DNA of 64,000 nucleotides. Source: Capsicum annuum (lineage: Eukaryota; Streptophyta; Magnoliopsida; Solanales; Solanaceae). The position numbers were made by a program, and so were the translations under genes. Under the pieces are notes generated by a model. It was not told where the DNA came from. It saw nothing but the letters and a program-made list of their open reading frames with translations, and did not search any database. This document shows, piece by piece, positions 37,181 through 59,700 of the stretch; the first letter of the stretch is position 1; each line of letters begins with the position of its first letter. The stretch lies in assembly GCF_002878395.1 (NCBI RefSeq), contig NC_061111.1, forward strand, positions 22,764,152-22,828,151, given 5' to 3'.

Positions 37181-39820
37181 ATGGTTGCAAGGACTATGAT
37201 TATAGCATTCCTAGTTTTGTTAACGTACTTCTTAGATACTAATGCAGCAAATATTTCAACTGATGAAGCTGCAATTTTAGCTTTCAAAGCTCATATAACT
37301 TCAGAGTCGAATGGAATATTGTCAAAAAACTGGACAAAAGGGACTAACATTTGCAATTGGATAGGCATATCTTGCAGTAAAAGGCATCAAAGAGTGACAT
37401 CATTAGTCCTTAAAAGCTTTGGATTTAGAGGTTCAATAGCTAAAGAAATTGGTAACCTCTCATTCCTTAGCTTTTTGGACATTGGAAACAACAGTTTCCA
37501 TGGACAAATCCCAGATGAAATCGGGCGTTTGAGGCGTTTAAAATATGTCTTTGCAAATGAATAATCTTACTGGTCAAATCCCACAAAGCCTTGGATCATT
37601 TCTCACTAGGCTTCAAATTCTTGATCTTTCTGGAAATGATCTATTTGGAGTTGTTCCATTTTCCATTTTCAATGTGTCTTCCTTAAAGCTCATTGATTTG
37701 GGACGAAATCGGATTAGTGGGGATCTGCCAAGGGGATTTTGTACTAGGCTTCCAAATCTGCAAGGTTTATTACTCGCAACAAATCAATTAGTAGGCCAAA
37801 TCCCAAGTGGGCTGAATCAATGCACACAACTTCTTTATCTTTCCTTGTCATATAATCAGTCACAGGTACTCTCTCCGTCTCAAATCATCTGTCATAATTT
37901 CTTAAAATAGTTATTTCAAATTACTCCATCTGTTCATGTTACTCGTCCAGAGAGTGGCCAACTTTACTTCTCCTGTTTGAAAAACCAAGAGATATTTTAC
38001 CATTTTGAAAAATGTCACATAAATTGCGACAAAGAAGTACATGATTAAGAATCATTTAATCCTTTTACAATGTTATGGGGCTATTTGATAATGTTCATAT
38101 GTATTATTAACAGGAGGTTTGCCAAGAGACATGTGGAATTTGACAAAGCTTCAAGATTTATATATTGCTCGGAATAACCTTACAGGTAATAATAATATTG
38201 AGCAGTCAGAATAAAGGTAACCAATTTGTAAATGACCTGCTTAGATTTTTGGAATGAATTTGCAAGAATAATACCGAATGAAATCGAGAACCTATCGTCA
38301 ATTCGAAGATTAAATCTTCGAAGAAACGAGTTAGTTGGAACACGGCCATCAACTCTTAGGGAATTCGTCAACTTTGGTGATGATAGACATTGGTGAGAAC
38401 CAAATCCATGGTAATATTCCTCAAGAACTAGGACATCTCTCTAGTCTTGAAGAATTATATCTTGGATCCAACATGTTAGCAGGTGAAATTCCGATTGGAA
38501 TTTTCAACATTTCATCGCTAAAAGTAATAGCACTTACTGCAAATAGTCTGTCTGGCAAACTTACTTCATACTTGGCTAATAGCCTTCCAAATCTTGAGGG
38601 ACTTTATCTTGGGATTAATCAGTTTAGTGGTACACTTCCTAGCTCCATATCAAATGCTACTAAGCTCAACTTTCTTGATCTTGGAAGGAACATGTTTAGT
38701 GGAAATGTACCAATTGATCTGGGAATAACTCTCCAGCAGATTCAAAGCATCAACTTGCAAAGGAATCACTTTACAAATGATCCCTCATCTACGGGTGAAT
38801 TAAGTTTTCTAAATTCCCTCTCATATTGCAAGTTCTTGAAAACTATAATGATTGGAGACAACCAATTTAGGGGCATTCTTCCGAAATCATCCTTGACTAA
38901 CTTGTCATTGTCTCTTGAGAGTTTCATCGCCTATGACTGTGGAATCAGGGGGGAAATCCCAGTTGAAATCAGTAACTTGACTAACTTGTCGTGGTTAACA
39001 CTGGGAGCCAATGAGTTAATTGGTTCAATTCCTCAAGAATTGGGGAAGTTGAACAAGATGCAAACTTTGAGAATGTACTACAGCCAATTAGATGGGATCA
39101 TACCTGAAAACTTATGCAATATCAAAGAATTGTACTTCTTGGACTTGAGAAGAAATCGACTAACAGGGAAAGTACTAGGGTGTTTGGGAAATATTTCTTC
39201 ATTAAGAAATATATATTTAGATTCCAATGCTTTAAGTTCAGATATTCCATTAAATTTTTGGAGTAATAAGGATATCTCAATTGTAAGTTTGTCGTTTAAT
39301 CAGTTAAATGGTCCTTCGGAGTTGGAGATTGGAAATATGAGGGGTCTACGTGAGTTATATCTATCAGGAAATGAGTTGTTTGGTCAAATTCCAAGCACCG
39401 TTGGACAACTCCAGAATTTGGTTAACCTTTCATTAGATATGAATAGGTTAGATGGTGCTATACCTAAGACATTCGAATATTTGGTCAGCTTGGAATACTT
39501 CGATTTGTCACATAACAATTTATCAGGCCAAATTCCAATGTCATTGACAAAGCTTAAGCATCTCATCTATCTGAATGTCTCTTTCAATGAACTATCTGGT
39601 GAAATTCCAGATGGAGGTCCTTTTGGTAATTTCACAGCTGAATCGTTCATAGGCAATGGATAGTTATGTGGACCATCTAGATTCCACGTCAAGGCGTGCA
39701 AAAACCAGAGCGATATGGGAAGAAACGGGAAGAAAACAGTACTAAAATTTGTTCTTGGACCAGCTGTAGCTGGAGCCGTGGTTATAGCCATTTTATGCAT
39801 TATTTGGTGGTTGAAATATT
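37181..39820 (+). pseudogene. LRR-RLK pseudogene: ectodomain and membrane span
   Basis: Visible in order: signal peptide (about residues 1-22); LRRNT cap (AAILAFKAHITSESNGILSK, then WTKGTNICNWIGISC); about 20 LRRs of the LxxLxLxxNxLxGxIP type (e.g. LFLDIGNNSFHGQIPDEIG, LYLSGNELFGQIPSTVGQLQ); the C-terminal cap around FIGNG, the stop, then LCGPSRFHVKAC; and the membrane segment FVLGPAVAGAVVIAILCIIW. The intron at 37867-38114 carries MITE-like sequence. The relics at 1914-2602 and 26530-28490 share its splice position, which shows the intron predates the duplication of the three copies. Confidence 0.9.
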
Positions 39821-39859
39821 GAAAACGGAAAAACCAACTTAGTCCTTTATGGTCCGATT

Positions 39860-40205
39860 GGTATGGTCAATTATCACACAAGAGGTTTTCTTACTATGAA
39901 ATTGTTAACAGGGACTAACAACTTTGAAGAATCGAATTTGATTGGAAAGGGAAGCCTTGGTATGGTTTATAAGGGGACATTTACAAATGAGACAGTAGTA
40001 GCCGTGAAGGTTTTCAATGCACAGGTGCAAGATGCATTCAAAAGGTTTGATTTGGAGTGTAAGGTTTTGCATAACATTCGACATAGGAATCTTGTTAAGG
40101 TGATAAGTAGTTGTGCAAATCTTGATTTCAAGGCACTGGTGCTAGAGTATATGCCTAATAGAATCTTGATTATTGGCTTTACTCTCACAATAATTTCTTG
40201 GATTT
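39860..40205 (+). pseudogene. LRR-RLK pseudogene: kinase N-lobe
   Basis: Shows the glycine loop IGKGSLGMVYKGTF, the VAVKVF lysine, FDLECKVL with the helix-C glutamate, and LVKVISSCANLDFKALVLEYMPN. A single-base loss right after MPN shifts the frame and gives a stop (40206) just at the Gypsy-F target site. The ATP-site residues themselves are preserved. Confidence 0.9.
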
Positions 40206-40210
40206 AATCC

Positions 40211-40942
40211 TGATACAAAAGATCAAACTTACAATAAGGAATCAAGAGAACAATAAGAACAACATCACTAGAGAATCAAAGGCCCCACTCGGCTTTTCTA
40301 GGTTTTCAAGGCAACAACGACAATATTCAACAAAATAGATAAATAACACAAGATTGCAATAACTATAGTGAATCGAAAGAGCCCCACACGGCTTCACTAT
40401 ATCAAGATACAAACAACAAGATTGCAAAATGATGGATAGTAACTTGACACAAAATAACCTAGAATCTAAGAACCCTAACATGAAGATTAGGACCCTAAGA
40501 CTAAAAGATATTTACACCAAATTCTTACTTGAATCAAGAGGAACTCATGAACCTCAAGACCCCCAAGTTTCTAGCCAAAGAACAACAAAAGCGTTACTAC
40601 ACTTTGTTGTCTAGTTTTGGGTTCACTCTCAAGAACAAGAGAGAAGTTCTCAAAATATTACAAGACTTGTGTTTCTTCCATAATAAAAATGAACTAAGTC
40701 CAAGAAATAACCCTATTATTGTCTATTTATAGTACTCCACAAAATGAATGGAAAATGACCATTCTAGCCTTGGTCTTGGGTGGCTTTGGAGTGTAATAAA
40801 CTTATACTTCAAAGCCCCTCTTCACACTTCAAAACATGAAATCCCTTAGATGAATTAATTACACACTCACACACGGCCATTTGCATGAACATGGCTTACT
40901 TGGCTACGTGTGAATGGTCTTGAGCTAGTTGCACTTGTATCA
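40211..40942 (-). repeat. Gypsy-F 3' LTR
   Basis: 732 bases; matches 46990-47733. It lacks about 20 bases near 40890 that the other LTR has around 47665-47690, and has about 9 extra bases near 40255. Confidence 0.93.
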
Positions 40943-42200
40943 TCCTCTCCATCTTGAAGGGAATTTGTCCTCAAATTCGATGGATGTTCATCCTCAACCG
41001 TGGCAATAGGAGAGAGGTCACATATGTTGAAGGTGTTGTGCACTTGATATTCCGGAGGAAGGTCAATTTTGTAGGCATTATCATTGATTCTTTCAAGTAC
41101 TTGAAAGGGACCATCACCCCTCGGCATCAACTTGGTTTTCCTTTGTGAAGGAAACCAGTCTTTTCTAAGGTGCACCCAAACCCAATCACCACCCAATTCA
41201 AGAATAAGCTTTCTTCTCCCCTTGTTTGCTTTCTTAGCAATCTCTTGATTTTTCTTCTCAAGCTTTTGCCGCACTTTCTCATGCAATTTCTTCATAGCTT
41301 CGGCCTTCTTGCTTCCATCTAAGCTAATCATAAGATCACTTGGCAAAGGAGTTAAATCCAAAGGGGTGAGGGGGTTGATGTCGTATACACACTCAAAGGG
41401 AGTCATTCCCGTACTTGAGTGTATAACCCGATTGAATGCAAATTCCACCAAAGGTAGGTGGTCCTCCCATGAAGTCATTTTGCCTTTAACCATTGATCGT
41501 AACATAGAACCCAAAGTCCTATTTACAACCTCGGTTTGGCCATCGGTTTGTGGGTGGCAAGATTAGAGAATAGCAATCTAGTGCCAAGCCTACCCCATAT
41601 TGACTTCCAAAAGTGACTAAGGAACTTAGAGTCCCTATCACTTACAATGGTCCTTGGAACACCATGCAATTTGACAACATTTTCAACAAATAAAGAAGCC
41701 ACACTTGACGCATCTTCACTTTTTGAACAAGGAATAAAGTGTGCCATCTTAGAAAACCGATCAACCACAACAAAAATGTTATCCCTACCTCGTCTAGTCC
41801 TCGGCAATCCTAACACAAAATCCATAGATATATCAGGCCAAGGACGTAAAGGAGTGGGAAGCAAGGTATATAACCCGTGAGGGAGGAGCCGAAACTTGGC
41901 TCCCTTACAATCTACACATTGGCCGCAAATCCTAGCCACATCCTTGTGCATTCTAGGCTAATAGAATTGCTCCTCCAATATCCCGAGGGTCTTGTCAATC
42001 CCAAAATGACCCATTAGACCGCCATCGTGTGCTTCCCTTACAAACAACTCTCTCCAAGAGCTAGAAGGTATACACAATCGTCTACCTTTAAACAAGTAAC
42101 CATCAAACTTGGCATAAGGATTTGAACCCCTATCCGAAACCCACTTGTCCCTACCCAATTCTTCCCATTCCCTAAAGATAGAATCAAAGTGAGGATCCTC
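40867..42200 (-). pseudogene. Gypsy-F integrase
   Basis: The minus strand shows HHCC ([18 protein letters not shown], then CGQCVDC), the core [36 protein letters not shown], and the C-terminal region PLTPLDLTPLPSDLMISLDG and GDGPFQVLERINDNAYKI. Breaks: an in-frame stop in the zinc region (near 41955) and a frame change near 41520, in the stretch holding the third catalytic residue. The final codons (SSRPFTRSQVSH) lie inside the LTR, as in Gypsy-A. Confidence 0.92.
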
Positions 42201-43601
42201 GGGATACAATGCCTTTAGGCTCTCAAAACCCATTAACTTTGAAGACAAAGTGGACACGAGTACATATTTTCTAGACAAGGCATCGGCAACCACATTGTCC
42301 TTACCCTTCTTGTATTGAATAACATAAGGGAAGGTTTCTAGAAACTCAATCCATTTGGCGTGCCGTTTGTTAAGCTTGTCTTGTGCCCGTAAGTGTTTCA
42401 AGGACTCATGGTCCGTCCGGATCACAAATTCCTTGAACCACAAGTAGTGTTGCCAATTGCCCAATGCTCTAATCAAGGAATACAACTCTAAATCATACGT
42501 GGAGTAGTTTAGAGTAGCACCCTTGAGCTTTTCACTAAAATAAGCAACGGGTTTTAAGTCTTGCATCAAAACAGCTCCTATGCCTACTTTACTAGCATCG
42601 CATTCAACTTCGAACGTCTTATCAAAGTTGGCCAATTATAACAAAGGAGCGAAAATGAGCATAGTTTTCAAAGCTTCAAAAGCCTTAGCTTGCTCTTCAC
42701 CCCACTTGAAGGGTTGCTCTTTCCGAATGACCTCGGTCAAGGGGGCGGCTATGGTGCTAAATCCTTTGACAAACCTTCTATAAAAACTAGCCAACCCTTG
42801 GAAGCTTCTTACTTCACCAACGGTTTGTGGGATTGGCCAATTTTTTATAGCGTCTATCTTGGATTCATCCACTTCGACCCCTCTTGAACCAACAACAAAA
42901 CCCAAGAAAACAACTTCATTAACACTAAAGGAACACTTTTCAAGATTGGCATACAACTTTTCTTTTCTAAGCACATCAAAGACACTTTGTAAATGCAATA
43001 CATGCTCATCTATGGACTTTCTATATACCAAGACATCATCAAAATAAACAATAACAAACTTTCCAACAAAAGGCTTCATCACATGATTCATTAGCCGCAT
43101 GAAAGTACTTGGAGCGTTGGTTAGGCCGAATGGCATAACCATCCATTCATAGAAACCAAATTTGGTCTTGAAGGCGATTTTCCATTCATCACCGGGTTGC
43201 ATACAAATTTGGTGATAACCACTCCAAAGATCTACCTTGGAAAATATACAAGAACCATTCATCTCATCAAGCATGTCATCTAATCTAGAAATAGGGTGAC
43301 GATATTTTACCGTAATCTTGTTGATGGCTCGACAGTCCACACACATACGCCAAGTTCTACCCTTCTTTGGTACTAATAATAACGGAACCGCACATGGACT
43401 CATGCTCTCTTTGATGTAACCTTTGTTGAGAAGTTCAACTTGTCGTTGTAGTTCTTTGGTGTCCGTAGGGTTGCTTCTATAAGCCGGTTTGTTTGGCAAT
43501 TGTGAGCCCGACACAAAGCCAATTTTATGCTCAATACCCCGAAGTGGGGGCAACCCTTGCAGAAGTTCTTTGGGAAAAACATCTTCATAATCCTGCAACA
43601 C
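42201..43601 (-). pseudogene. Gypsy-F reverse transcriptase and RNase H
   Basis: The minus strand encodes [35 protein letters not shown], the catalytic box [31 protein letters not shown], then RNase [54 protein letters not shown] and [15 protein letters not shown]. One in-frame stop (about 42636) separates RT from RNase H. The catalytic residues of both are present. Confidence 0.93.
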
Positions 43602-44440
43602 GGGAAATCAAAGGAGAAATAGAAGAATTAGTGAGGTTAGTGTTAAAACAATGTGCCAAAAGAAGCATGGGTGTGTCCTCATCATGATCCACGAAGAGCT
43701 TCTTCTTTCTAACCAACATCACCATAGTTTCTTTTCCATTTGATATTGAGGCAGCCCCGGATACCCCCACTACCCCTCCTACCGGTTCCCCCTTCTTTTC
43801 TTTATTTTCGTATTTCTTCCCCTTTTCTTTCAATTCTTTCATCCTTTGATGCAACTCATTCACTTGTGAAGGCAAAAGTGGATGAAGTGTGACCTTTCGG
43901 CCATCCTTCTCAAGTGTATATCGATTAGACCTCCCATCATGTTTGGTAGACCTATCATATTGCCAAGGTCTACCTAACAACAAGTGACACGCTTGCATTG
44001 GTATTACGTCACAAAGCACTTCGTCATGGTAGTTTCCTACCTTAAACCGTATCACACATTGCCTCATGACTTTCAATTCACCACATTCATTTAACCATTG
44101 CAACTTATAAGGGCTAGTATGAAGTGTAGTGGGCAATTTCAAGAAGTTCACCATAGCAACACTAACAATATTTGCACAACTACCACTATCTATCACCAAA
44201 GTGCACACACTACCCTTCACAAGGCACTTAGTATGGAATAGATTCTCCCTTTGGCTAGGGTCATCTATTGCCTTACTAATCATGGCACGCCTCACTACAA
44301 AGTTCAGAAGAACACACTCTCCTTCTTGCGGATAAACATCTTCCCCATCATCATGATCATGTGGCTCACCCTCCGTTTCCTCTCCATCTTGAGGCTCGGC
44401 CTTATTTTCCTCTCTTTCAACACCCACTTCTTCACCAAGG
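43585..44440 (-). pseudogene. Gypsy-F protease region
   Basis: The minus-strand frame 43585-44646 carries CTLVIDSGSCANIVSVAMVN, a normal D-S-G aspartic-protease site, then VIPMQACHLLLGRPWQYDRS, the flap-side block seen in this gypsy family. The frame overlaps gag, which ends in the other frame. Confidence 0.85.
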
Positions 44441-45893
44441 AAATACAATCTACCTTCCCTTAGGATTACATTGCGTCGGTTAGGGCATTCTTTGGCTTTA
44501 TGCCCCCAACCTTGGCACTTGAAGCATTGGAACCCTTTAGGATTAGGATACTTGTGAACTTCTTGCCTCGAAGGAATTTTGGGGACTGTTTTGGGCTCGG
44601 GCAGCCTAGTAATGACGAGATGGTGCTTATTTTTGGGCCAACCCAAAGAGGATTAACCATATCCTTGCCCCTTGGCCAACCCAAGGTCGATTGTCCCTTT
44701 GCTTTGAACGATGACCTCTCTTTAAGTTCCCTTTCCATCTCAAGAGCCGCTTGGAAAATACCTTCGACGGTATCAAACTTATGAAGTGTCAAATGAGTGG
44801 AGATCTCTTTGTTCAACCCACACTTGAACCGAATGATGTCATGACTAATTTGTTCTCCACGATGATCAAGCTTCAACATGAGTTGTTGAAACTCATCATA
44901 ATATGCCATCACACTTCAATTCCCTTGTCGCAAATTGTACAACCTAGCAATCAACTCATGACGATAATTTTTGGGAAGATACCATTGCCTCATTAGATAC
45001 CTCAACTGAAACCATGGTGGTGGTTGTCCATCAATCAACTCATTACCAAACCTTTTGACGTATTCCCACCATGTGTTAGCATAACCTTCAAAGTGAGCTA
45101 TGGCGTCACAACTCTTCTTCTCTTCTGAGATATCATTCACTTGAAACACTTTATCGCACGCCGATTCCCAAGCAAGATAAACCTCGGGGTCACTTTCACC
45201 CTTAAAGATAGGTAGGCTCAATTTGATGTTATTGATGCCTACGTCTCTCTCTTGGTGTCGGTTTTCCCTTTCTCCATACCCTCGGTATCTTCTTGGATCC
45301 ACACGTCCCCCTCTCATCTCCTCTTCCCTCATGTAAGCCTCATCAAAGGCTCCATACCCTTCATAATTCGCTCTACCATATTCCTCAAAGTGGACGGGAC
45401 AGTTTTGAACGTTTGGGACTTGATTTGGAGGAATTGTATTTTGTAGAGGTAGTGGTATTTGGTTTAGTGGAGCTCGGAAGGGAGAGTTTGGATTTAGTGG
45501 AGGTATTGGACACCCAAGTCCTTCTTGCGGAACTTGAGGAGTTTGGGAATGGGTTGGTCTATTGGAGTCTCGGGTTAGGGGGTTATGGGTCGTTTGGCTT
45601 GCGGCATTTAGTGGAGCTAGTGAAGGATTTGGCAATTGTGGCCATGTTTAGGGAGTAACGGTGGCGGAGGAATTTCTATCATGTCCACTTGAGGAAACAT
45701 GTCGAGGGGTAGAAGGGTAAGAGTTTCTTTGACCCTCCACTTATTCTAACCTCCCACTAATAGTCGTTACTTCTCCCCTTATGGCTCCCACTTCCGTACT
45801 CAACCTTTCAAGAGTTCGGATCATAGCCTCAGGAGTGACCCTCATATTCTCCATTTCATTAGAATCCACGGTTTGAGACGTGGTTCCCTCCAT
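44441..45893 (-). pseudogene. Gypsy-F gag
   Basis: Starts near ATG 45893 (MEGTTSQTVDSNEMENMRVT). After a frame break near 45640-45740 it shows LSLPIFKGESDPEVYLAWE, CDAIAHFEGYANTWWEYVKR and QPPPWFQLRYLMRQWYLPKN. Then, after a stop near 44914, come YYDEFQQLMLKLDHRGEQIS and a complete zinc knuckle CFKCQGWGHKAKECP (in the frame that continues into protease). Confidence 0.9.
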
Positions 45894-46969
45894 TGTCAAG
45901 GTATCACCTACACAAGCAATAAACAAGTTAGTTTAAAACCTCTTCTCACTCACACTCTCTTGGTCCACTCACACTCAAGCTCCACAAGTGTTGTAGATTG
46001 GCTAGTAACCCGTGAATCTTTAAGGTATGAGTATGCTCTTGTCCGAAATGGATTCTTGTTTGAAACTCAAAGAATTCTCATCGGACTAGAGCCAAGAGTT
46101 ACAACGTATTCAAATGATAAAAGCACACAAACAAACGTTGACACGAACACAAAGCTTCAAAGGGCTAATTGACAAGCTAGTAGGAATGTACTAGTTTGTT
46201 AATTAGTTCTCAAGTCAATTAGATGAAACTAGGAAACAATAATTAGAAACTAGAACATCCAAATTTGAGCTTAATTATCATGTGAAAAGTAACTAGGGTG
46301 ACGTGGTAGCATGTCATTGGCCACGGGTCCACATACGTTGTTCATCAACTTGAAGCCTTGGTCCCTTTATATCATGTGTAATGGATGACTAGTTATTGTT
46401 TATATCATGTGTAATGGATGACTAGTTATTGGGAGGGAAACATAAAGTTTTGTAACTTTTTTTTTTTTCAACTTTTTCAAACTCAAAAGGTGATGTTTGA
46501 TCTTACTAGTTCCACAAGACAAGGTTCCTTGCTTTAAGGGAAAAGTGGTTGTCAAGTCTAGAAAGGTGATGTTGGTAAGTCTTCTCACAAACAACTTTTT
46601 CAATTTTGTCTTGCAACCTTTTTGGATCTATTGCTCTTTTAAGACATAGGATGATGAGAAACTTTTAAGATGAACACAACATCAACACCTTCAAGAACAA
46701 AACAACAATACACCACAATGGCACTCCAACATCCAACACAAGTCAAACTCAAGGACACTTCAAGTTTTCACCACAACAAGTCTCTTCTTATTAAGCTCAA
46801 CTTTAGATTTAGACACTTTTTTGTGTTGATGGGGAAGAGACCAACACAAGAAACAAACTAAACAAGTAAAATCTTATGTAGATCTACAACCAATTTTCGA
46901 CCAAAATGTTCAAGAACACACTTTTTGGTAAGAGCTTCCCAAGATTGGTTTTGTAAGAACAAAACCAAG
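45894..46969 (-). other. Gypsy-F untranslated leader
   Basis: Non-coding leader between gag and the primer-binding site. It contains a short direct duplication (TATCATGTGTAATGGATGAC) near 46370-46430. Confidence 0.6.
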
Positions 46970-46987
46970 CCTTGATCTTTGATACCA
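46970..46987 (-). other. Gypsy-F primer-binding site
   Basis: The minus strand reads TGGTATCAAAGATCAAGG two bases inside the 5' LTR; it is close to the initiator-Met complement TGGTATCAGAGC at its start. Confidence 0.75.
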
Positions 46988-46989
46988 AA

Positions 46990-47733
46990 TGATACAAAAG
47001 ATCAAACTTACAACAAGGAATCAAGAGAACAACATCACTAGAGAATCAAAGGCCCCACTCGGCTTCTCTAGGTTTTCAAGGCAACAACGACAATATTCAA
47101 CAAGATAGATAAATAACACAAGATTGCAATAACTATAGTGAATCGAAAGAGCCCCACACGGCTTCACTATATCAATATACAAACAACAAGATTACAAAAT
47201 GATAGATAGTAACTTGACACAAAATATCCTAGAATCTGAGAACCCTAACATGAAGATTAGGACCCTAAGACTAAAAGATATTTACACCAAATTCTTACTT
47301 GAATCAAGAGGAACTCATGAACCTCAAGACCCCCAAGTTTCTAGCCAAAGAACAACAAAAGTGTTACTACACTTTGTTGTCTAGTTTTGGGTTCACTCTC
47401 AAGAACAAGAGAGAGAAGTTCTCAAAATATTACAAGACTTGTGTTTCTTCCATAATAAAAATGAACTAAGTCCAACAAATAGCCTTATTATTGTCTATTT
47501 ATAGTACTCCACAAAGTGAATGGAAAATGACCATTCTAGCCTTGGTGTTGGGTGGCTTTGGAGTGTAATAAACTTACACTTCAAAGCCCTCTTCACACTT
47601 CAAAACATGAAATCCCTTAGATGAATTAATTACACACTCACACACGGCCATTTGCATGAACATGGCTTGGAGTTTTTGTAATTCCCGAGCTTGGCTACGT
47701 GTGAATGGTCTTGAGCTAGTTGCACTTGTATCA
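46990..47733 (-). repeat. Gypsy-F 5' LTR
   Basis: 744 bases, TGATACAAAAG ... CTTGTATCA on the plus strand; followed by AATCC. Confidence 0.93.
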
Positions 47734-47738
47734 AATCC

Positions 47739-48784
47739 AAAGGCTGAAAATTATGGTTGATGTGGCTTGTGCCTTAGAGTATCTACACCAAGGCCATTCA
47801 CTTGTCGTGGTCCATTGTGACTTAAAACCAAGTAACATACTTTTGGATAGAGACATGGTTGCCAGAGTAAGTGACTTTGGTATATCTAAACTCTTGACAA
47901 CGCATGATCCAGTGGCACTGACGAAGACCTTGGGCACCATTGGCTACATGGCACCAGGTTACTTCTCTATTAACTAATTTCTTCAACTTGTACTGTATGT
48001 GTATCTATATATATTTGTATCACAGGCAGATCCAAGATTTAAATTTGATGCTTTCAACCTTCAGGTTCTCAATGAATAAACTAGTTTTAGAGAATACAAG
48101 TTTCTCCTTGTGGAAGCGAATTTGCTGTCACCGTGACTTATGTTACCGAAAGTTGAGAATCCTCATAATACAGAAAATCCCCCAATTTCCACAGACTAAA
48201 ATTCTTCTAGATGCAAAGAGTATTTTTTCGTTCTAATGAGCCCTAACCACTTCTCTCTTAATGAAGAAGAGCATGTTCTTCAACATCCATAATTGTGTTT
48301 TTATAAGCAATCAATTAGGTTAACTAATAAACCTCAATAAGTGGACCAGGCCCAACAAAATGGCATAAATACATTTACTTTAAATGCGTTTGCTTTTACC
48401 TCTTGATGGCTAATTTGATGAATAAAATGTTAAAATGTTGCAGAGTACGGGTCAGAAGGGATAGTGTCAACAATGGGGGATGTTTACAGCTACGGCATTT
48501 TATTGATGGAAACCTTCACAAGAAAGAAGCCAGTAGCTGATGAATTTGTTGGAGAGCTTACCTTGAAGAGATGGGTTGTGGAATCACATCCTCATAGGGT
48601 CATGGACATTGTGGACGCCAATTTATTTTCAAGAGATGAACATTTGATAGCTATTGAAGGTTGTTTGAGATCGGTATTGGAAGTAGCTCTTGAATGTACT
48701 GTGGACTTGCCCCAAGACCGAATTACCATGGATAATGTCCGCGTAAGGCTCAACAAGATCCAAACTCAATTTTTCGGCCAGTAG
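47739..48784 (+). pseudogene. LRR-RLK pseudogene: kinase C-lobe (two exons)
   Basis: Exon 47739-47957 encodes LKIMVDVACALEYLHQGHSL, the catalytic loop VVHCDLKPSNILLD, VSDFGISKLL and the activation segment to GTIGYMAP. Intron 47958-48443 (GT..AG) splits the PE codon. Exon 48444-48784 encodes YGSEGIVSTMGDVYSYGILL, METFTRKKPVADEFVGE and a C-terminus ending TQFFGQ with TAG at 48782. The catalytic loop has Cys before the Asp (HCD), so the kinase is of the non-RD class typical of innate-immunity receptors. This part has no stop or frameshift. Confidence 0.93.
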
Positions 48785-49256: not shown

Positions 49257-49261
49257 ACAAT

Positions 49262-49522
49262 TGTTGAAGTATTGAGTTATTTACTGTTATTTTTCTTTTT
49301 AGTTTAGTAATTTTATTTTTGAAATTTAGTTATTTAAGTTGATATAGAATAGGATTTATTAGTATCCTAGTTGAAGGTATAATAGAATTTTATTAGTTTC
49401 CTAGTCAAAAATAGAATATGAGTATTTTTGTCTATTTATATTCTCAAATGTGAATGAATAAATAAGTAGAATATTTTTTTATCCTTAAACTTTTCTTCTT
49501 CTCTGTGTTCTGTAGAAGAACA
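49262..49522 (+). repeat. Copia-D 5' LTR
   Basis: TGTTGAAG ... GTAGAAGAACA; followed by AT and TGGTATCAGAG (primer-binding site, 49525-49535). Confidence 0.93.
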
Positions 49523-49593
49523 ATTGGTATCAGAGTCAATTTCTTGAGGGAAGACCCCCCCAAAAAAAATCCTGCGTAAAAGTCAACATTGTT

Positions 49594-50430
49594 ATGGCTT
49601 CCAATAATTTCTCAATTCCTTCAACCCAAATTTTTTCCGGTGAGAATTATTCAATTTGGCTTATCAAGATGAGAACATACTTGCGAGCATATGATCTGTA
49701 GCAAGTGGTATAGGTTGGAGGAGAGGTAAATCATTTGCCAGATAATCCAACTATGGCGCAAATTAAGAATCACAGAAAACAGGTTGCAAAAAACTTTAAA
49801 GCTCTCTCTTGCATACAATTAGCACTTTCGAAAGTAATTTTCGCTAGAGTTATGGCGAGTGAGACTGCAAAGAAGGCTTGGGACAAGTTGAAAGAAGAAT
49901 TTCACGGAAGTGACAAGATTAGGCAAATAAAAGTGATAAATCTGAGAAGAGAGTTCGAAATTCTAGAATGAAGGATTCAGAAACTATAGAAGAATTCTCC
50001 AACAAGTTGATGAAGGTTGTAAACCAAATCAGACTTATGGGAGAAGAGCTTACAGATTCAAGAATCGTGGAAAAGGTTCTTGTGAGTTTGCCGAAAAGAT
50101 TTGAAGAAAAGATCTCCTCACTCAAAGATTCGACGGATCTCAGAAAATTGTCACCTTTAGAACTCGCTCTTCAAGCTCAAGAGCAAAGAAGATCCTTGAG
50201 GCTAAAAGAAGCTACTGAAACTGCTCTTCAAGCCAAGTTCAAAGGGAAGATGCAGTTGCAAAAGGAAGGTAAAATCCTAGAAACTTCTACTAATTCTAGT
50301 AGAAAAAATCAAGGCGATTCTCGCAATGGAGTCAAGAAGAAATAAAACTTCCCCCCATGCAAGTATTGCAGAAAAACCAATCATAAAGAGGATGACTGTT
50401 GGTTTAAGGGGAAGAAACCATCTCTCCAGT
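49594..50430 (+). pseudogene. Copia-D gag
   Basis: Begins at ATG 49594 (MASNNFSIPSTQIFSGENYS). An early stop occurs after RAYDL (49699). It continues with [40 protein letters not shown], then a frameshift at about 49970 and ETIEEFSNKLMKVVNQIRLM, SRIVEKVLVSLPKRFEEKIS and a zinc knuckle CKYCRKTNHKEDDC near 50358-50400. This is ordinary UBN2-type Copia gag with three breaks. Confidence 0.92.
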
Positions 50431-50569
50431 GTAGATAGTGCAATAACTTGGTCATATTGAAAAGTTTTGCAGAGTGAAGAAGGAGAACAACCAACAAACT
50501 CAAAAAGCCAACGTTTCAAAAGTTGAAGAACGGGAGAAGTTTGTGTTTACGGTGATGGCAGCAACAAGA

Positions 50570-50962
50570 TTGAATGATGAAAACACATGGTTTCTGGACA
50601 GTGGTTGCACTCAACACATGACCAGCAAATGAGAATATTTTACGAAGTTGGAATCTGCCAAAGGTATTGTCAAGTTGACCGATAAAACTACGTTGAAGAT
50701 TGTTGGTAAAGGAACTGTGGCAATTAAAGCTCCCAAAGGTAATACATTTATTCAAGATGTTTTATTGGTACTTGATCTTGATCAAAATCTATTGAGTATT
50801 GGTCAAATGCTAGAACAAGATTATATGTTACTGTTTAAAGACAAAAAATGTATTGTTTCTGATTCTAGCGGCCAAGAAGTGACAGTTGAAATGATAAAAA
50901 TAAGTTTTCCTTTGAATTGGAAATCAAATTCTGAGCAAGTTTGTAGAAGTAGTCAATGTGAG
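50570..50962 (+). pseudogene. Copia-D protease and integrase start
   Basis: NTWFLDSGCTQHMTSK is the Copia protease active site (D-S-G); a stop follows it. LVLDLDQNLLSIGQMLEQDY and KKCIVSDSSGQEV correspond to the segment before the integrase zinc finger. The frame then runs, without shift, into the HSP90-like segment. No integrase core, RT or RNase H follows. Confidence 0.9.
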
Positions 50963-51135
50963 TAGGTTATTTTGACCACCAAGCACAACGATGACAAACA
51001 GTATATCTGGGAATCATCGGAATCACAAGCAGGTGGTTCATTCACTGTTACGAGGGATGTAAATGCTGAGCAATTAGGCAGAGGAATAAAGATAACTCTC
51101 TTCCTCAAGGAAGACCAGCTGGAGTATTTAGAAGA
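50960..51135 (+). pseudogene. Captured HSP90 N-terminal-domain fragment
   Basis: [40 protein letters not shown] and [17 protein letters not shown] match, from family knowledge, the end of the ATP-binding N domain of cytosolic HSP90 (TTKHNDDEQY, GRGTKI.L.LKEDQ.EYLEE). It is in frame with the preceding protease segment apart from one TAG (50963). It stops matching right after EYLEE. A two-residue insertion (SE) is present in the WESQAGG region. Confidence 0.9.
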
Positions 51136-51665
51136 ACTGAAAGCTTTTATAGAAGAGAAAAATCTTAAGATGGATTATTTGGAGCAGAAGATGGCTTATG
51201 TTGAACAAGAAATTAAATAGTTAAAATATAGTTGTATGATGCTGGAGTCCTCAAATACTGCTTGTACACGTGCTAATGAAATAATGATTGACCATACTGA
51301 TGATGGACACCTGAAGCATGAGATGATTTTCCTAACTGGAGGATATGATGGTGTATCATGGTTATCAGCATTGGACTCGTATTTACCTTCATTCGATGTG
51401 TTAAATTCACTTAAACCAATGAATTCAGTTCGTGTATATGCCTCGGTTGCAAAGCTGAGTGAAGAATTTTATGTATTTGTTGGTGGAACTGGAAGCTTGT
51501 GGTATGACACAGTTGAATCGTACAACCCAGCTAATGATGAATAAACTATGTGCCTTTGTTTGAAAGAGAAACGGGGTAGCTTAGTTGGTGCAACTTTGAA
51601 GGACAAAATATTTGCAATTGGTGGTGGAAATGGGATTGAATGCTTTTCAGAGGTTATTCATCATA
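51130..51665 (+). pseudogene. Captured coiled-coil/Kelch-repeat protein fragment
   Basis: From [19 protein letters not shown] a heptad-rich coiled coil leads into IFLTGGYDGVSWLSALDSYL, SVRVYASVAKLSEEFYVFVG, GTGSLWYDTVESYNPANDE and LVGATLKDKIFAIGGGNGIE. These are Kelch blades (GG, Y..V..YNP..D) as in plant DCD/Kelch-type proteins with a preceding coiled coil. The frame is the same as that of the flanking segments, broken by TAG at 51218 and TAA at 51542. It stops within a blade after ECFSEV. Confidence 0.88.
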
Positions 51666-51880
51666 TTTTTGCTGAGAAACCAGCTGTCTGCAAAGCATAT
51701 TTAAATTTTGTTCCTGGAAAGATGTCAGGAAAATAATTCTAGACTGAATATTCAAGGGTTGAATACCTCCACAGTACAAAAAATTTTGTTGCAACTTTTG
51801 CCAAGGCTTCTGAAGATGAGGAGCTTATAGTTTTCTTGAAACAAGATGCTATGTTAGCATCTAAAGCTCGAAAAAAGAAG
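51666..51880 (+). pseudogene. Captured TFIIH p62/TFB1-type BSD-domain fragment
   Basis: KPAVCKAYLNFVPGKMSGK, then two stops (51734, 51740), then [19 protein letters not shown] and [20 protein letters not shown]. By recall this is the BSD domain and following region of the plant TFIIH core subunit p62/TFB1, whose hallmark is VP.KMSEK-FW-KY followed by AEYLHSTKN; the FW position coincides with the second stop. Same reading frame as its neighbours. Assignment is from memory of the family and is less certain than HSP90. Confidence 0.65.
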
Positions 51881-52132
51881 AACAACATTCTCAAGGTGAT
51901 TAGGAAGAACCTTGTGAAGAAATGTATTGAGATGTTCAGTGAAATTGATGAGAACAAGGAGGACTATAGCAAGTTCTATGAAGCTTTCTCAAAGAACTTG
52001 AAGTTGGGCATTCACGAAGACAGCCAGAACAAAGTCAAATTGGCTGACCTCCTTCGTTACCATTCCACCAAAAGTGGTGATGAGATGACCAGCCTGAAGG
52101 ATTATGTCACTAGGATGAAGGAGGGCCTGAAA
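51881..52132 (+). pseudogene. Captured HSP90 middle-domain fragment
   Basis: [60 protein letters not shown] and [20 protein letters not shown] are the highly conserved HSP90 middle-domain block. No stop interrupts this segment. Between this and the first HSP90 fragment, the natural protein has about 200 further residues that are absent here; Kelch and BSD segments stand in their place. After MKEG, a short unassigned stretch ([20 protein letters not shown]) leads to the LTR. Confidence 0.92.
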
Positions 52133-52197
52133 GACATCTCAGATTTGAAACTCTTCATGAACAACTTGGAGTTACCAGCAAATATCTCAAGGAGGAG

Positions 52198-52459
52198 TGT
52201 TGAAGTATTGAGTTATTTGTTGTTATTTTTCTTTTTAGTTTAGTAATTTTATTTTTGAAATTCAGTTATTTAAGTTGATATAGAATAGGATTTATTAGTA
52301 TCCTAATTGAAGGTAGAATAAGATTTTATTAGTTTCCTAGTCAGAAATAGAATAGGAGTATTTTTGTCTATTTATATTCTCAGATGTGAATGAATAAGTA
52401 AGTAGAACATTTTTTTATCCTCAAACGTTTTCTTCTTCTCGGTGTTCTGTAGAACAACA
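52198..52459 (+). repeat. Copia-D 3' LTR
   Basis: Matches 49262-49522 with few differences. The chimeric reading frame runs about 45 bases into it before a stop at 52241. Confidence 0.93.
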
Positions 52460-53024
52460 GTAACAATCAAATCTTAATAGATGGAAACTTTTTCAAAGAT
52501 AAATTAATTTAATGCTAAAATAAACTAATCTAATGTGGTTAAAGCAAAATTTGCTTGAAGTAACTTAAAGAAGGTGGCAGATTGCTTTTACCTGTAAATC
52601 TGGAACATTGAGGAAGCCAAAACCTGCCATAACCAGCATGATCAATAAAAGATTTTAACGAAGCCAAGCCAATTCAGCCTATAAGTGAGCAGCCTCTTAT
52701 GGGACTTGAGTTTTGATTTTGAGCAGTGTAAAAGCCTCCTGATTAGACTCCTCCTTACTGCCTGCATCAGAGATGGTCAAATACATGGTAGTAATTGTTC
52801 CATGCCGAGGAATTTTATCTCATAGTCATACGTAATTATTCTTCTTTTTTAAACATGTCAAGATCAATTTGCATTGGCATTGTTACTGCCACTGCAACCG
52901 AACCCAATAGTGAAACAACAACTACTTGTTTGCTGCTACTTCAATTCTATCGTGGCGATCAATCCGATATTGGTGGTGGCTTCGTCACAAACACCACCCA
53001 AATAAACCAACTCAGCCTCCTCAC
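52460..53024. other. Intergenic, no assigned gene
   Basis: No recognisable gene. A minus-strand stretch at 52595-52700 ending in CAG/GTAAAAG could be an exon edge but matches nothing I know. Confidence 0.4.
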
Positions 53025-53204
53025 GTGGCTCCATCTCCGGTTGATAATGCAGTTCCGCCATTGCACATGGCTTCACCAACTCGTGTGGCTCCATCCCTAG
53101 TTGATGACGTAGTTTCCCCACCGCACATGGCTCCATCATCATCGTCTTTGGCCCCAACACCATCACCAGTTGATAATGCAGTTCCGTCATTGCACGCGAC
53201 TTCT
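53025..53204 (+). repeat. 60-bp tandem repeat, three units, in-frame
   Basis: Units start at 53025, 53085 and 53145 with GTGGCTCCATCTCCGGTTGA-like sequence. Because the period is divisible by three they encode a 20-residue repeat, VAPSPVDNAVPPLHMASPTR and variants, within an open stretch 52926-53369. I do not recognise the protein; it may be a relic. Confidence 0.8.
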
Positions 53205-53746
53205 TGCATCAAGATAGACGATTGCGTATCAGATTTGATTATTTTGGTTTTCAAGCATAAAATTTTATCATCCACACAATGCTGCAACGTCACTTCAACA
53301 ATTTCAGAAGAATTCTTTTACAGAGGGTTCATGTACTCCGAGAGGGTACCATTTCTAAAAACACTATAAATGAACTAGGCACCTCTAGGGTCTGGCGTCA
53401 ACAATGGATGCTTTAGCATTCCCTAAAATGATTTCAATAATGACTATTTCAAGAAAGAGGACAAAGCACACTGAATAGTGAATTTGAATTTTTCAAAGTA
53501 TTAGCAGAGAAGATAAGAAAGATACTTCAGAAAACCTTTCAAAACTCCACAGTACATATGCAAGCATCCTACAATGTACTCACAAAATCTTCAAGTTCAT
53601 CAAAATTTTGTTGATTCTGCTCTATATGGGACTGTAGATTTGTGTCACTTTAAATGTTCTTTATCACTTGAGTTTTGGATTACAAACTGAAAACATGAAA
53701 CATTGAGTTGAATTCAGAATAATTTCTAGTATCTAAAATTTTCACA
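53205..53746. other. 3' flank of CYCLOPS
   Basis: Downstream of the CYCLOPS stop codon on the minus strand; presumably holds its 3' UTR. No polyadenylation signal could be assigned with confidence. Confidence 0.4.
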
Positions 53747-56700
53747 TTAAGAGATGATCCTCTCGATTTCTCCAAGAAGGCATTCTTTCTCCTTGACCAA
53801 ATCCTCATTCTGCTTCTGCAGCTCTTCAATTTGTGTAGTCTGTTCAGAATCCTTTCTGAGATTATGCAAAAACTCGATTAGTCACTAATCCATGATTGCT
53901 TGACAATTTCATTGTCATTGCAACTATATTAAAGTGCTGAGATGAGGTGAAAATGCAAGAATAATTACATATTTGATTAGAAAACAGGAAAAAGAATGGA
54001 TTCGAGCAGGATCTCATTGTACTTTCACCACCCTCAGTAAAGCATTTCTTTGTAAATACTTGATTTATGAGTAACTGAGCTAATTTCCTCTACATCTTTT
54101 TTGTTAGAGAATGCGTAAGTGCTGCAACAGTCTTATTTCTAAGTTATCTGTATGGAAGTTGTTATCTGTAAGCAGTTATTTGGTTTCTATCTTATCTGTA
54201 GTTGTTATCCTTATTCTTTTAGGAGTTGGTTACTTAGTTTCAGTTAGGATTGTAACTTATAAATAAGTATTAAATATGCAATAAAGCTATAGTTTTTGCT
54301 TTCATCAGCATCTCTCTGTTAATTTATCAAACTCATGTTCCACTTGTTCATCAACAAGTAAAATTAGTTTCTTATGTTCTTCACTCTCTAGAAACTTACA
54401 ATTGATATCAAAGCACTTATTTCTTGAGGGATCTGTGGGTGTTTCATCAAAGTAATAACTGAAACACGGCAAGTTTATGAAGCATGGAAACAGAATCAAG
54501 TTTTTCAACTATGGCACCACCTATTTTTAATGGTGATAACTATCAGATTTGGGTTGTAAGGATGGAGACTTATCTAGATGCCATGGATACGTGGGAGGCA
54601 ATTGAAGAACACTATGAAATTCCTCCATTGCCTGACAATCCAACTATGGCCCAGATCAAGAACCATAAAGACAAGAAAACCAGAAAATCAAAGGCAAAAG
54701 CCTGTCTATTTTCAGTAGTATCTTCTTCAATTTTCACTCGAATTATGTCTCTAAAGTCAGCCAAAGACATACGGGATTATCTCAAGTCAGAATATGAAGG
54801 GGATGAGAGTCAGAGGTATGCAAGTTTTGAATCTTATAAGAGATTTCAAGATGCAGAAGATGAAAGAAACTGAAACCATAAAAGATTACTCTGAAAGGCT
54901 TCTGAACATAGCAAATAGAGTAAGATTGCTTGGTTCCATGTTTAATGATTCTCGTATTGTTGAAAAAATTCTGGTAACTGTGCCGGAAAGATTTGAAGCA
55001 ACCATAACTACTTTGAAAAATACCAAGGATCTGTCCAAGATCACCTTGGCAGAGTTGTTGAATGCTTTCCAGGCTCAAGAACAATGAAAGGTCATGAGAG
55101 ATGAAGGAAATACCGAGGGAGCATTGTTTGCCAAGCCTCAAGATGGAGGCAAAAATAAAAAGAAGAAGAACAAGAAGAACGATGAAAACGCTCCAGCAGG
55201 TACTGCAATAGGAAAAACTGGAAACAAAAAGAAAAGTTTTCCTCCATGTAAGCATTGTAACAAGAAAGGCCATCCACCATACAAGTGTTGGAGAAGGCCT
55301 GATGCTAAGTGTAGTAAATGCAATCAACTTGGGCATGAAGCGGTCATTTGCAAGAACAATAATCAGCAACAAGAAGCAGATACTCAAATCATTGATGGAG
55401 AAAAGGAAGATCAACTCTTTGTTGCTACATGTTTTTCAAGTAAATCATCAAGTGAGTGTTGGTTGACTGATAGTGGATGTACTAATCACATGACAAACGA
55501 CAAGGATCTCTTCAAGGAATTAAAGCCTATGACCATTACTAAAGTCAGAATAGATAACGGTGAATATATTCCTACACAAGGAAAAGGAACGGTTGCTATT
55601 CCAAGTCACTCAGGTACATAAACAATTTATGAAGTGCTTTATGTACCTGACATAGATCAGAACTTGTTTAGTGTTGGTCAACTGATGGAAATCGGCTTCA
55701 AATTAAATTTTGAAGATAAACATTGCTTGATCAAGGATGCATCAGATCAAGAAATGTTCAAAGTAAGAATGAGAGGTAAAAGTTTCTCATTAGATCCATT
55801 TGAGAAGAAGCATTTGGTTTTTTCAGTCAAAGAAAATGTTGCAGAAATATGGCACAAGAGAATCGGACATTATCACTATGAAGGGTTGCTTAAAATGCAA
55901 AAGGCAGAAATAGTCGAGGACCTACCTGTTTTAGAAGTGAATTCTTCAAATTGCCTTGCGTGTCAATATGGGAAACAAAGCAAACTTCCATTTCCAAAGA
56001 CAACTTGGAGAGCGTCAAAGAAATTGCAACTAATTCATACCGATATAGCAGGACCTCAAAGGACTCCCTCACTAAAAGGTAGTCTTTACTATATCATTTT
56101 TGTTGATGATCTAACTCGCATGTGTTGGATTTACTTTCTCAAGCATAAGTTAGAGGCTGCTAATGTCTTTCGGAAGTTCAAAGCAAAAGTAGAAAATAAA
56201 GCTGCTTGTAAAATTCAGTCCATACGAACAGATAATGGAAAGGAATACACGTCTCAACAATTTAACATTTTATGTGAGGAAGCAGGTATTCATCATCATC
56301 TCCGTATACTCCTCAACAAAATGGAGTAAGTCAAAGAAGGAATAGATACATAATGGAGATGACCAAATGCATGTTGCACGAGAAGAACTTGCCAAAGAAA
56401 TTTTGGGCAAAAGCAGCAAATACATCAGTTTTTCTCCAAACTAGGTTTCTCACAAAGGCAGTGAAAGGTCGAACTCCTTTTGAAGCTTGGTATGGGTTCA
56501 AACCATCATTAAACTTCCTTAAAGTGTTTGGTTGTCTCTGTTTTTCCTATGTTTCTCAAGTTAAACGCGACAAGCTAGATAAGAAATTTGTTCCAGGCAT
56601 TTTTATTGGATACAGTGCAGTTTCAAAGGCATATAAAGTCTTCCAACCGCAAACTGAAAATATAATCTTTAGTAGAGATGTGTATTTTATGGAGAATGAA

Positions 56701-59700
56701 GAATGGTGTTAGGAAGACTCAAAGAAATCTGTCCTGAACTCTTTGGACTCAGCACAAAAGTTTCCTGCCAAAGTTCCTGAAAAGCAAATATCACTCTCAT
56801 CGCAAGATGAAGTGGTGGATCATTCACCGATTAAAGGTACTCGACTACTCACTGATATATATCAGAGATGTAATGTGGCAGTATGTGAACCTGCTGGGTA
56901 CATTGAAGCCAAGAATGATGAAAATTGGGTGACTGCAATGAAAGAGGAGTTGTTTATGATTGAGAAGAACATGACTTGGGAGCTTGTTGATCAACCTAAA
57001 GACAGAAAAGTAATTGGGCTGAAATGGGTCTTCAGAACAAAGTTAAATGTCGATGGTTCAGTCAACAAGCATAAAGCAAGGCTTGTCGTTAAGGGATATG
57101 CTCAAATTTTTTGTGTGGATTATTTTGATACATTCGCACCAGTGGCTAGGCTTGACACGATCAGGTTACTTCTTGCTCTTGCTGCACAATTGGGCTGGAA
57201 AATGTATTAGATGGATGTCAAATCGGCATTTCTTAATGGTTTTCTCCAGGAAGAAATTTATGTTGAGCAACCCGAAGGCTTTATGACGAAAGGAAAAGAG
57301 GACAAAGTTTACAGGCTAAGAAAGGCGCTTTATGGACTTAAACAAGCACCAAGGGCCTGGTATGGTCGAATAGATGATCATTTGCTTGGGTTAGGCTTTG
57401 AAAAGAGTCTATCAGAATCTACTCTTTATGTTAAACATAATGGCATTGATATTCTTGTCGTGTCTATATATGTTGATGAGGTACTAGTTACAGGGAGCAA
57501 TACAAAGCATATTGAGGATTTCAAGCAAGAAATGATGCAAGCCTTCGAGATGACTGATCTTGGCCTAATGTCCTATTTTCTTGGAATGGAAATCAAATAG
57601 GGACAGAATGAAGTTTTCATTTTTCAGAAGAAATATGCTAAGGAAATTCTGAAGAAGTTCAACATGAAAGATTGCAAGGAGATGAGTACTCCTATGAACC
57701 AAAAAGAGAAACTAAGCAAGAATGATGGAGCAGAGAAAGTGGAGGAAACGTACTTCAGAGGCTTAGTCGGTTGTTTGATGTATCTCACAGCTACAAGACC
57801 CGATATTTTGTATGTTGTAAGCATTTTATCGAGGTTTATGCATTGTGCTAGTGAGCTGCATCTAAAAGCAGCAAAAAGAGTAATCAGATTCATCAGAGGA
57901 ACCATTAATTATGGTGTCAAGTTTCAGAAAAATCCAAATCCGAAACTACTTGGGTATTCTGATAGTGATTGGGCTGGATCAGTAGATGACATGAAGAGCA
58001 ATCTGGAGCTTGGCTCCGAAATATTTTTGTGGTGCTCAAAGAAGCAAGATATTGTGGCTAAATCCACTGCAGAGGCAGAATTTGTGGCGGCAAGCAGCAG
58101 CGAATCAAGCTTTGTGGTTGAGGAAAATATTTGTTGATCTGCATATGAATCAAACAAAAGGAACTGAAGTATTTGTGGACAACCAATCTGTGATAGCAAT
58201 TTCTCACAATCCTGTATTTCATGCCAAAACAAAACAGTTCAATATCAAGCTTTGCTTCTTGAGGGAAGTGCAAAAAATGGGTGATGTGATTCTGCTTTAT
58301 TGCAAAACCGAGGATCAGCTGGCTGATATCTTCACCAAACCTTTACCAGGAAGCAAATTCCAACTTCTCAGGAAAAAACTTGGAGTTTGCAGCTCTTAAA
58401 GTAAGGAAGAGTGTTAGAAAAATGCATAAGTGCTGCAACAGTCTTATTTCTAAGTTATCTGTATAGAAGTTGTTATCTGTAGGCAGTTATTTGGTTTCTA
58501 TCTTATCTGTAATTGTTATCCTTATCCTTTTAGGAGTTGGTTACTTAGTTTCAGTTAGGATTGTAACTTATAAATAAATTTCAAATCTGTAATAAAGCTA
58601 TAGTTTTTGCTTTCATCAACATCTCTCTGTTAATTTATCAAACTCATGTTCCACTGGTTCATCAACTAATAAAATCAGTTTCTTATGTTCTTCACTCTCT
58701 GGAAACTTACGGTTTTTTTTGTCCTACCCTTGAAGGATTAGCGGAGTTGGGATTATTAAACCACCTAAGCCAACAAGCCTAGGACATGGGCTTTGAGAAA
58801 GGTTACGCAACACTTAGTAGAACACGTTCCACATCTTTGAGAAGCTTCTGCATTTTTATAGCAGGAAACTGTTTTCAATTGGTAAAAGCAGTATTGACAA
58901 TTGACACCAGTCAAAATTTCTTGGTTCCAATGTTATGATCTCATTCTTTCCCTCCTTTTTCAACTTTAAAAGAATAGTTATTGCAGGTTTTGATATCATA
59001 CAGTGTTAACTGATTCAATAGGAGGTAAAGAGAAAGCATTAAATTCCATATATCACAGGTCTATACCATTTATTGATCCTTGCATCTTCACTATATCACA
59101 GATGTGGAGAAATCTCAAAGTTGTTTCACTTAATTGATAGCTATATAGTAGTAAACAAGCATGGAAACATGGACAGATTTTATTGCTAAATGAAAAATAT
59201 TTTTTCCACCAAACTGATGTTGAACCACAAAAACTATACACATGATAAAGTTGTCAAATGTTTCTGAACTTCCATTCCTAAGTTTTTGTGTTTGAACATA
59301 CCTATTCATAAACGCCAAATTAAGTTTAAGTGAGCGGACTTCCTTCTCCAAATTCTCACAGCGCTTCATAAGGGATTGCATATCTGAAGGAATTGCTGTT
59401 GTTAAATTTCTCTCTTTGGCTTCTGCCATTCTGCATCGATATTGAGAACAGTAAGCTTACGAAATGGATCATATTCTATGAGAAAATTTTAAGTGGTATA
59501 CACCTGAGGAACCACACAAATGGGCTTAAATCTAAACTTTGAGCTATTCTAGAAACCAAGCAAGTAGCTAAATAATAGCCCTTCTCTTTAAGGAGAAGGT
59601 TCGTCTCATTAACAAAAACAAAGATGTACAAAATCTAATCATCACACAATTATGGTTGCGAACAAAAGAGAGATAAATTGGTAGGATATTCCCGAGTTAG

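Follow-up and report, generated by a model that had tools for sequence, protein, structure and literature searches.

A decayed Copia element of a multicopy Capsicum family carrying in-frame HSP90, DCD-Kelch and TFB1 fragments, likely gained serially by template switching

Introduction

A window of Capsicum annuum DNA (the whole stretch that was analysed, 64 kb in length) contains at 49262-52459 what was predicted, from the letters alone, to be a Copia element in which gag and protease are followed by pieces of HSP90, a Kelch protein, a BSD-type protein and HSP90 again, all in one reading frame. The question raised by this locus is how fragments of several host genes came to be joined in frame inside a retrotransposon.

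In the available text of PMC13317346 maize Bs1 is described as a plant LTR element with three host gene segments and a hybrid frame, and it is mentioned likewise in the available text of PMC7264820. Pepper LTR elements, mostly non-autonomous, capture spliced mRNA, mainly of NLRs, and two or three genes inside one element have been noted, according to the accessible part of PMC5664825; the main text of that paper mentions neither HSP90 nor heat shock. BARE-2 and Veju are chimeric LTR elements that are ascribed, in the portion of PMC13317346 at hand, to switching between co-packaged RNAs.

Results and discussion

The features of the element, with residue numbers taken from the C. annuum proteins P0085 (HSP90), P0015 (DCD-Kelch) and P0186 (TFB1), are as follows.

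49262..49522, + strand: 5′ LTR with TG...CA ends, 94% identical to the 3′ LTR
49525..49535, + strand: primer-binding-site-like TGGTATCAGAG, read from the sequence
49594..50446, + strand: decayed Copia gag, its frame changing two or more times and broken by several stops; Retrotran_gag_2 in two frames
50447..50965, + strand: zinc-knuckle gag end and Pol_BBD stub; PF22936, E 1.3e-13 over 50633-50962
50966..51136, + strand: piece of the HSP90 N domain (residues 140-193 of P0085) into which three residues are inserted
51137..51655, + strand: DCD-Kelch piece, about residues 323-490 of P0015, two internal stops
51656..51877, + strand: TFB1 (TFIIH p62) piece, about residues 207-280 of P0186, two internal stops
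51878..52138, + strand: HSP90 middle-domain piece, ending at residue 467 of P0085
52139..52197, + strand: element 3′ end, common to relatives, with a purine tract (52189-52197) at its end
52198..52459, + strand: 3′ LTR, 94% identical to the 5′ LTR
51284..51501 joined to 51775..52243, + strand: P0011, a public gene model named 'Heat shock protein 82 [Capsicum annuum]', exact match

The two predicted LTRs were confirmed: 246 of 261 aligned bases are identical, with one gap (K2P 0.060), and a BLAST search with the 5′ LTR found no third copy in the 64-kb window. We take TGGTATCAGAG at 49525-49535 to fit the initiator tRNA-Met. ACAAT at 49257-49261 adjoins the 5′ LTR and a second ACAAT lies at 52463-52467, three bases past the 3′ LTR; the pair is either a displaced target duplication or chance, and a clean target-site duplication is absent.

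Retrotran_gag_2 (PF14223) matched twice (E 5e-12 and 2.1e-13), each time in its own frame, and Pol_BBD sits in a third. The gag has thus been frameshifted at least twice, so that the gag of the original prediction is present but not intact, and what had been called protease corresponds to the Pol_BBD stub. The features of a Copia element that were found are the paired LTRs with TG...CA ends, a Copia gag and a Copia-type Pol_BBD (Pfam). No Pfam match to integrase, reverse transcriptase or RNase H was obtained in the nine ORF pieces between the LTRs, and the window element is not an autonomous Copia. At its other end, relatives carry an identical peptide ahead of the LTR, as in 52139-52197 of the window copy; these 59 bases are probably the element's own 3′ end. 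The HSP90 tail described earlier holds for the PF00183 piece and does not extend into this stretch.

The predicted order of the host pieces stood, each matching its C. annuum parent at 83-93%. The HSP90 N-domain piece (PDB 4x9l, E 7.2e-24) is 88-93% to P0085 and the middle-domain piece (PF00183, E 8.4e-37) is 86%; the latter is without some 47 residues (337-383) that other copies retain. For the Kelch and BSD pieces host matches had been sought and were found, at 87% to P0015 (Kelch_1 at 21.0 bits, the cut-off being 20.1) and 83% to P0186. The BSD match of the window TFB1 piece is under the cut-off (E 0.27); the piece was identified from its match to P0186 and from relatives that pass this cut-off (P0092, P0122 and P0124), of which P0124 also gave PDB matches to GTF2H1/TFB1. 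Profile, PDB and parent-protein matches led us to reject chance similarity. The LTRs thus enclose fragments of two or more unrelated host genes.

One frame spans 50447-52243, and the host chimera shares it with the preceding Pol_BBD stub. Over 50648-52243, where a single frame had been claimed, five stops (50963, 51218, 51542, 51734 and 51740) precede the terminal one and there are no frameshifts; a hybrid reading frame is present, but in the window copy it is closed by stops. The intron called in P0011 jumps three of these stops and the end of the model falls inside the LTR. Judged by its sequence, P0011 is a retrotransposon piece with a doubtful intron, and an ordinary Capsicum HSP90 gene was rejected as its identity.

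The surroundings of the element were also inspected. A second, full-size Copia of another family lies at 54110-58710 (LTRs 54110-54399 and 58421-58710, 94%), with gag, an integrase core (rve) and an RNase H end in a frame broken by stops. Upstream, an LRR receptor-kinase gene is present in pieces over 38335-48784, its LRR part (38335-39660) and kinase end (48434-48781) separated by a Gypsy-type element on the minus strand (about 40867-45647). A 59-base repeat occurs three times at 53020-53207, the units being 68-76% alike.

Relatives of the chimera

Protein searches were made with three queries, the host part of the window copy, its relative P0092 and residues 140-550 of the relative P0122; they covered proteins of 0.55-1.75 times the query length, longer relatives falling outside, and relatives were chosen by eye from 120 matches per search and then verified by sequence. 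This gave at least 34 chimeric clusters (17 with the host part, 15 more with P0092 and two more with the P0122 segment), all of them, among the matches listed, from Capsicum (annuum, chinense, baccatum and chacoense). On this sequence evidence the chimera is, among the matches listed, a multicopy Capsicum family. P0027 and P0030 were set aside, as they look like rearranged HSP90 with no Copia, Kelch or TFB1 parts. No Pfam match to integrase, reverse transcriptase or RNase H was found in the 34 clusters among the matches listed. A survey of titles and abstracts, outside which most subscription journals lie, found no published description of the family.

The relatives fall into two classes. In the Kelch class HSP90 runs to residue 193 and is followed by Kelch (322-490), TFB1 (206-280) and HSP90 again, resuming at 333. 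Where Kelch is lacking, HSP90 extends to about residue 237 and is followed by TFB1 62-280 and HSP90, again resuming at 333, and the copies often close with a Copia RNase H end; the HSP90 and TFB1 pieces of this Kelch-less class are longer and unbroken. Among the matches listed, the join from BBD to HSP90 was found in 7/34 clusters, HSP90 to TFB1 (Kelch-less class) in 4/34 by alignment and 8/34 by pattern, HSP90 to Kelch in 4/34, Kelch to TFB1 in 8/34 by alignment and 7/34 by pattern, and TFB1 to HSP90, in both classes, in 21/34 by alignment and 27/34 by a looser pattern; gene models excise stretches as introns or start late, so that an absent join says little. None of these joins occurs in the five controls, which were the parental proteins of the three genes and two other HSP90s. 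Both classes also include copies with the Copia RNase H end (13/34 by pattern among the matches listed). Just past the TFB1 to HSP90 join a derived R-to-W change is present in 20 of the 34, again in both classes, and the parental R in one, P0010, among the matches listed. Eight of 34 share the HSP90 deletion among the matches listed, the pattern having matched ten, of which P0092 and P0124 do not have the deletion.

Six of the 34 clusters among the matches listed, the window copy included, read from the chimera into the same LTR. As these six sit on contigs of six different lengths, the chimera has spread as part of the element. The captured pieces are framed by LTRs; terminal inverted repeats (TIRs) or Helitron ends would be expected of a Pack-MULE or Helitron capture. 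A fusion protein made by the window copy is putative; the longer fusions are predicted in gene models of other copies alone, and the introns of some of these models are doubtful.

Further host sequence appears in some relatives. P0136 (C. baccatum) has the BBD to HSP90 join, then a RING/PRT1-like stretch, HSP90 from 338 and the RNase H end. In this stretch the RING matches are near the cut-offs and a PRT1 zinc finger match was obtained (PDB 8zgb, E 1.4e-9); the PRT1-like piece lies in the HSP90 frame and is, from its sequence, probably a further capture. In P0130 (C. chinense) HSP90 runs at about residue 480 into MON1/FUZ longin domains, and the MON1 part may come from a neighbouring gene that was merged into the model.

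Four other candidates for capture were set aside as, judged by eye, probably gene models that run into neighbouring genes. They are CAX in P0195/P0215 (named from the source's name and PF01699), CBS in P0010 (named from Pfam), and sequences in P0007/P0028 and P0033 that we assume to be HD-Zip-like and epoxide-hydrolase-like, respectively. P0195 and P0215 (C. annuum and C. chinense) are vacuolar cation/proton exchanger models fused with a Kelch-less element copy, and this insertion may be common to the two species. In P0007 and P0028 (C. annuum and C. baccatum models) the element copy runs into the same presumably HD-Zip sequence, and the insertion may be older than the species split.

Order of capture

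TFB1 with HSP90 on both flanks was seen, among the matches listed, only in the Kelch-less class, which has thus probably kept the original insertion. The Kelch class is then probably, from the structures of the copies, the same arrangement with its inner part replaced. The likely order, on this comparison, is that HSP90 came first, TFB1 was set into HSP90, and Kelch was then placed over the inner join. In agreement, of 16 sequences compared among the matches listed, 15 have Kelch nearer its parent than TFB1 is to its own, the exception being P0011, the window copy with its doubtful intron. Two comparisons count against the order: Kelch is nearer its parent than the HSP90 middle-domain piece in only 12 of the 16 among the matches listed, and in the window the HSP90 N-domain piece (93%) is closer to its parent than Kelch is.

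A parent-rooted tree was built from 31 of 35 sequences, P0005, P0006, P0011 and P0137 having been dropped as too short. Most Kelch-less copies fall inside the Kelch copies, against the proposed order, with low support (0.46-0.78). P0130, Kelch-less in structure, stands beside the parents (0.91), and P0028 is labelled Kelch-less in the tree only since its model starts after Kelch. The copies are related, the parental rates differ and exchange between copies is likely; the order is therefore based on structure and not on the tree.

Proposed mechanism and alternatives

We consider it likely, with good though not full confidence, that the window element is a decayed Copia of a multicopy Capsicum family whose host fragments were gained serially by template switching. 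Reverse transcriptase would have switched between element RNA and host mRNAs, the source of the HSP90, DCD-Kelch and TFB1 fragments, and these would now occupy the place expected for integrase and reverse transcriptase. First, HSP90, from about residue 140 up to 480 or beyond, would have taken the place of most of pol, of which the RNase H end remained. HSP90 238-333 would then have been replaced by TFB1 62-280, and HSP90 194-237 together with TFB1 62-206 by Kelch 323-490. An in-frame HSP90 deletion and loss of the RNase H end would finally have given the window subtype. Movement of such copies would need an autonomous Copia in trans. The window copy would have inserted some 2.3 million years ago and then decayed, a rough date from 261 bases and the rate of 1.3e-8 per site and year given in the available part of PMC5664825.

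At the five comparable joins, two to three residues are common to both parents at the switch point; against random cuts the P values are 0.012, 0.010, 0.010, 0.001 and 0.011. For the fifth join the RNase H end was taken from the second Copia of the window, which is of another family. Such shared residues fit template switching, and microhomology-mediated DNA repair would look alike. The pieces could, then, have entered one copy at the DNA level, by such repair, by nesting of processed copies or by recombination with host genes, and been amplified afterwards. Every piece is in sense orientation and, as would be expected of cDNA, continuous at protein level, and at least two successive replacements inside coding sequence would fit an RNA-level process better. 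We therefore regard DNA-level entry as unlikely.

The kept frame bears on a second alternative, namely that selection acts, or acted until recently, on a gag fusion serving as a protein of the element or of the host, and that the frame was kept because it is functional. The frame is kept at all joins, and for the four joins and the HSP90 deletion of the window copy this would occur by chance once in 243, though the kept frame is partly why the case was noticed and protein searches favour open frames. Many relatives are annotated as proteins, but the gag is frameshifted and the P0011 model needs its doubtful intron. At 0.030 substitutions per site, 1.1-1.7 stops would be expected among the 410 host codons of the window copy, and four are present; this copy shows no constraint and is dead. 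Frameshifts in gag and none in the host part are a contrast within one copy, too small a sample. Selection for the fusion thus seems to us very improbable.

That several switches in a single round made the whole chain at once, a possibility also raised in the original prediction, fits the lack of an HSP90-only copy among the matches listed, but the TFB1 to HSP90 join is common to Kelch-less relatives with longer, uninterrupted HSP90 and TFB1 and no Kelch, so that replacement in two or more steps, by TFB1 and then by Kelch, is more likely, the companion proposal of HSP90 first with its interior later replaced is favoured, and a single round has the slightest chance of the three.

Serial gain by template switching could be taken further. 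It is conceivable, though we rather doubt it, that this is a serially capturing Copia lineage in which an HSP90 landing pad was overwritten repeatedly and the frame was kept as a gag fusion was needed; equally tentatively, such a lineage would have taken up PRT1, and perhaps MON1, on side branches, besides TFB1 and then Kelch. As a speculation, a heat-activated Copia and abundant HSP90 mRNA may have met in heat-stressed cells.

Conclusions

The original prediction had called such capture unusual, which is not borne out, since maize Bs1, in the available text of PMC13317346, is a precedent for in-frame capture of several genes. Both are plant LTR elements with several host genes and a hybrid frame (same source). 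The pepper chimera is unlike Bs1, as far as that text describes it, in its host genes, in that relatives keep intermediate steps and in that captures overwrite one another. It also differs from the pepper NLR retroduplicates, which are mainly whole genes in the accessible part of PMC5664825, in joining fragments of unrelated genes in the gag/BBD frame, and from BARE-2 and Veju, which in the available text of PMC13317346 carry DNA of other elements or of unknown origin, in carrying host coding sequence. The kind of capture is already known from Bs1; the series of steps in pepper is unusually complete.

For annotation, this means that retrotransposon pieces stand behind a number of pepper models named 'heat shock protein 82/83/90-1' or 'RNA polymerase II transcription factor B subunit 1-3'. 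The living relatives form a layered record of the stepwise building of a multi-gene chimera by an LTR element. The frame kept over all joins makes testable the need for an uninterrupted gag fusion in a non-autonomous element. Serial capture, if true, would parallel in plants the serial capture of oncogenes, and its intermediates would still be present in four pepper species.
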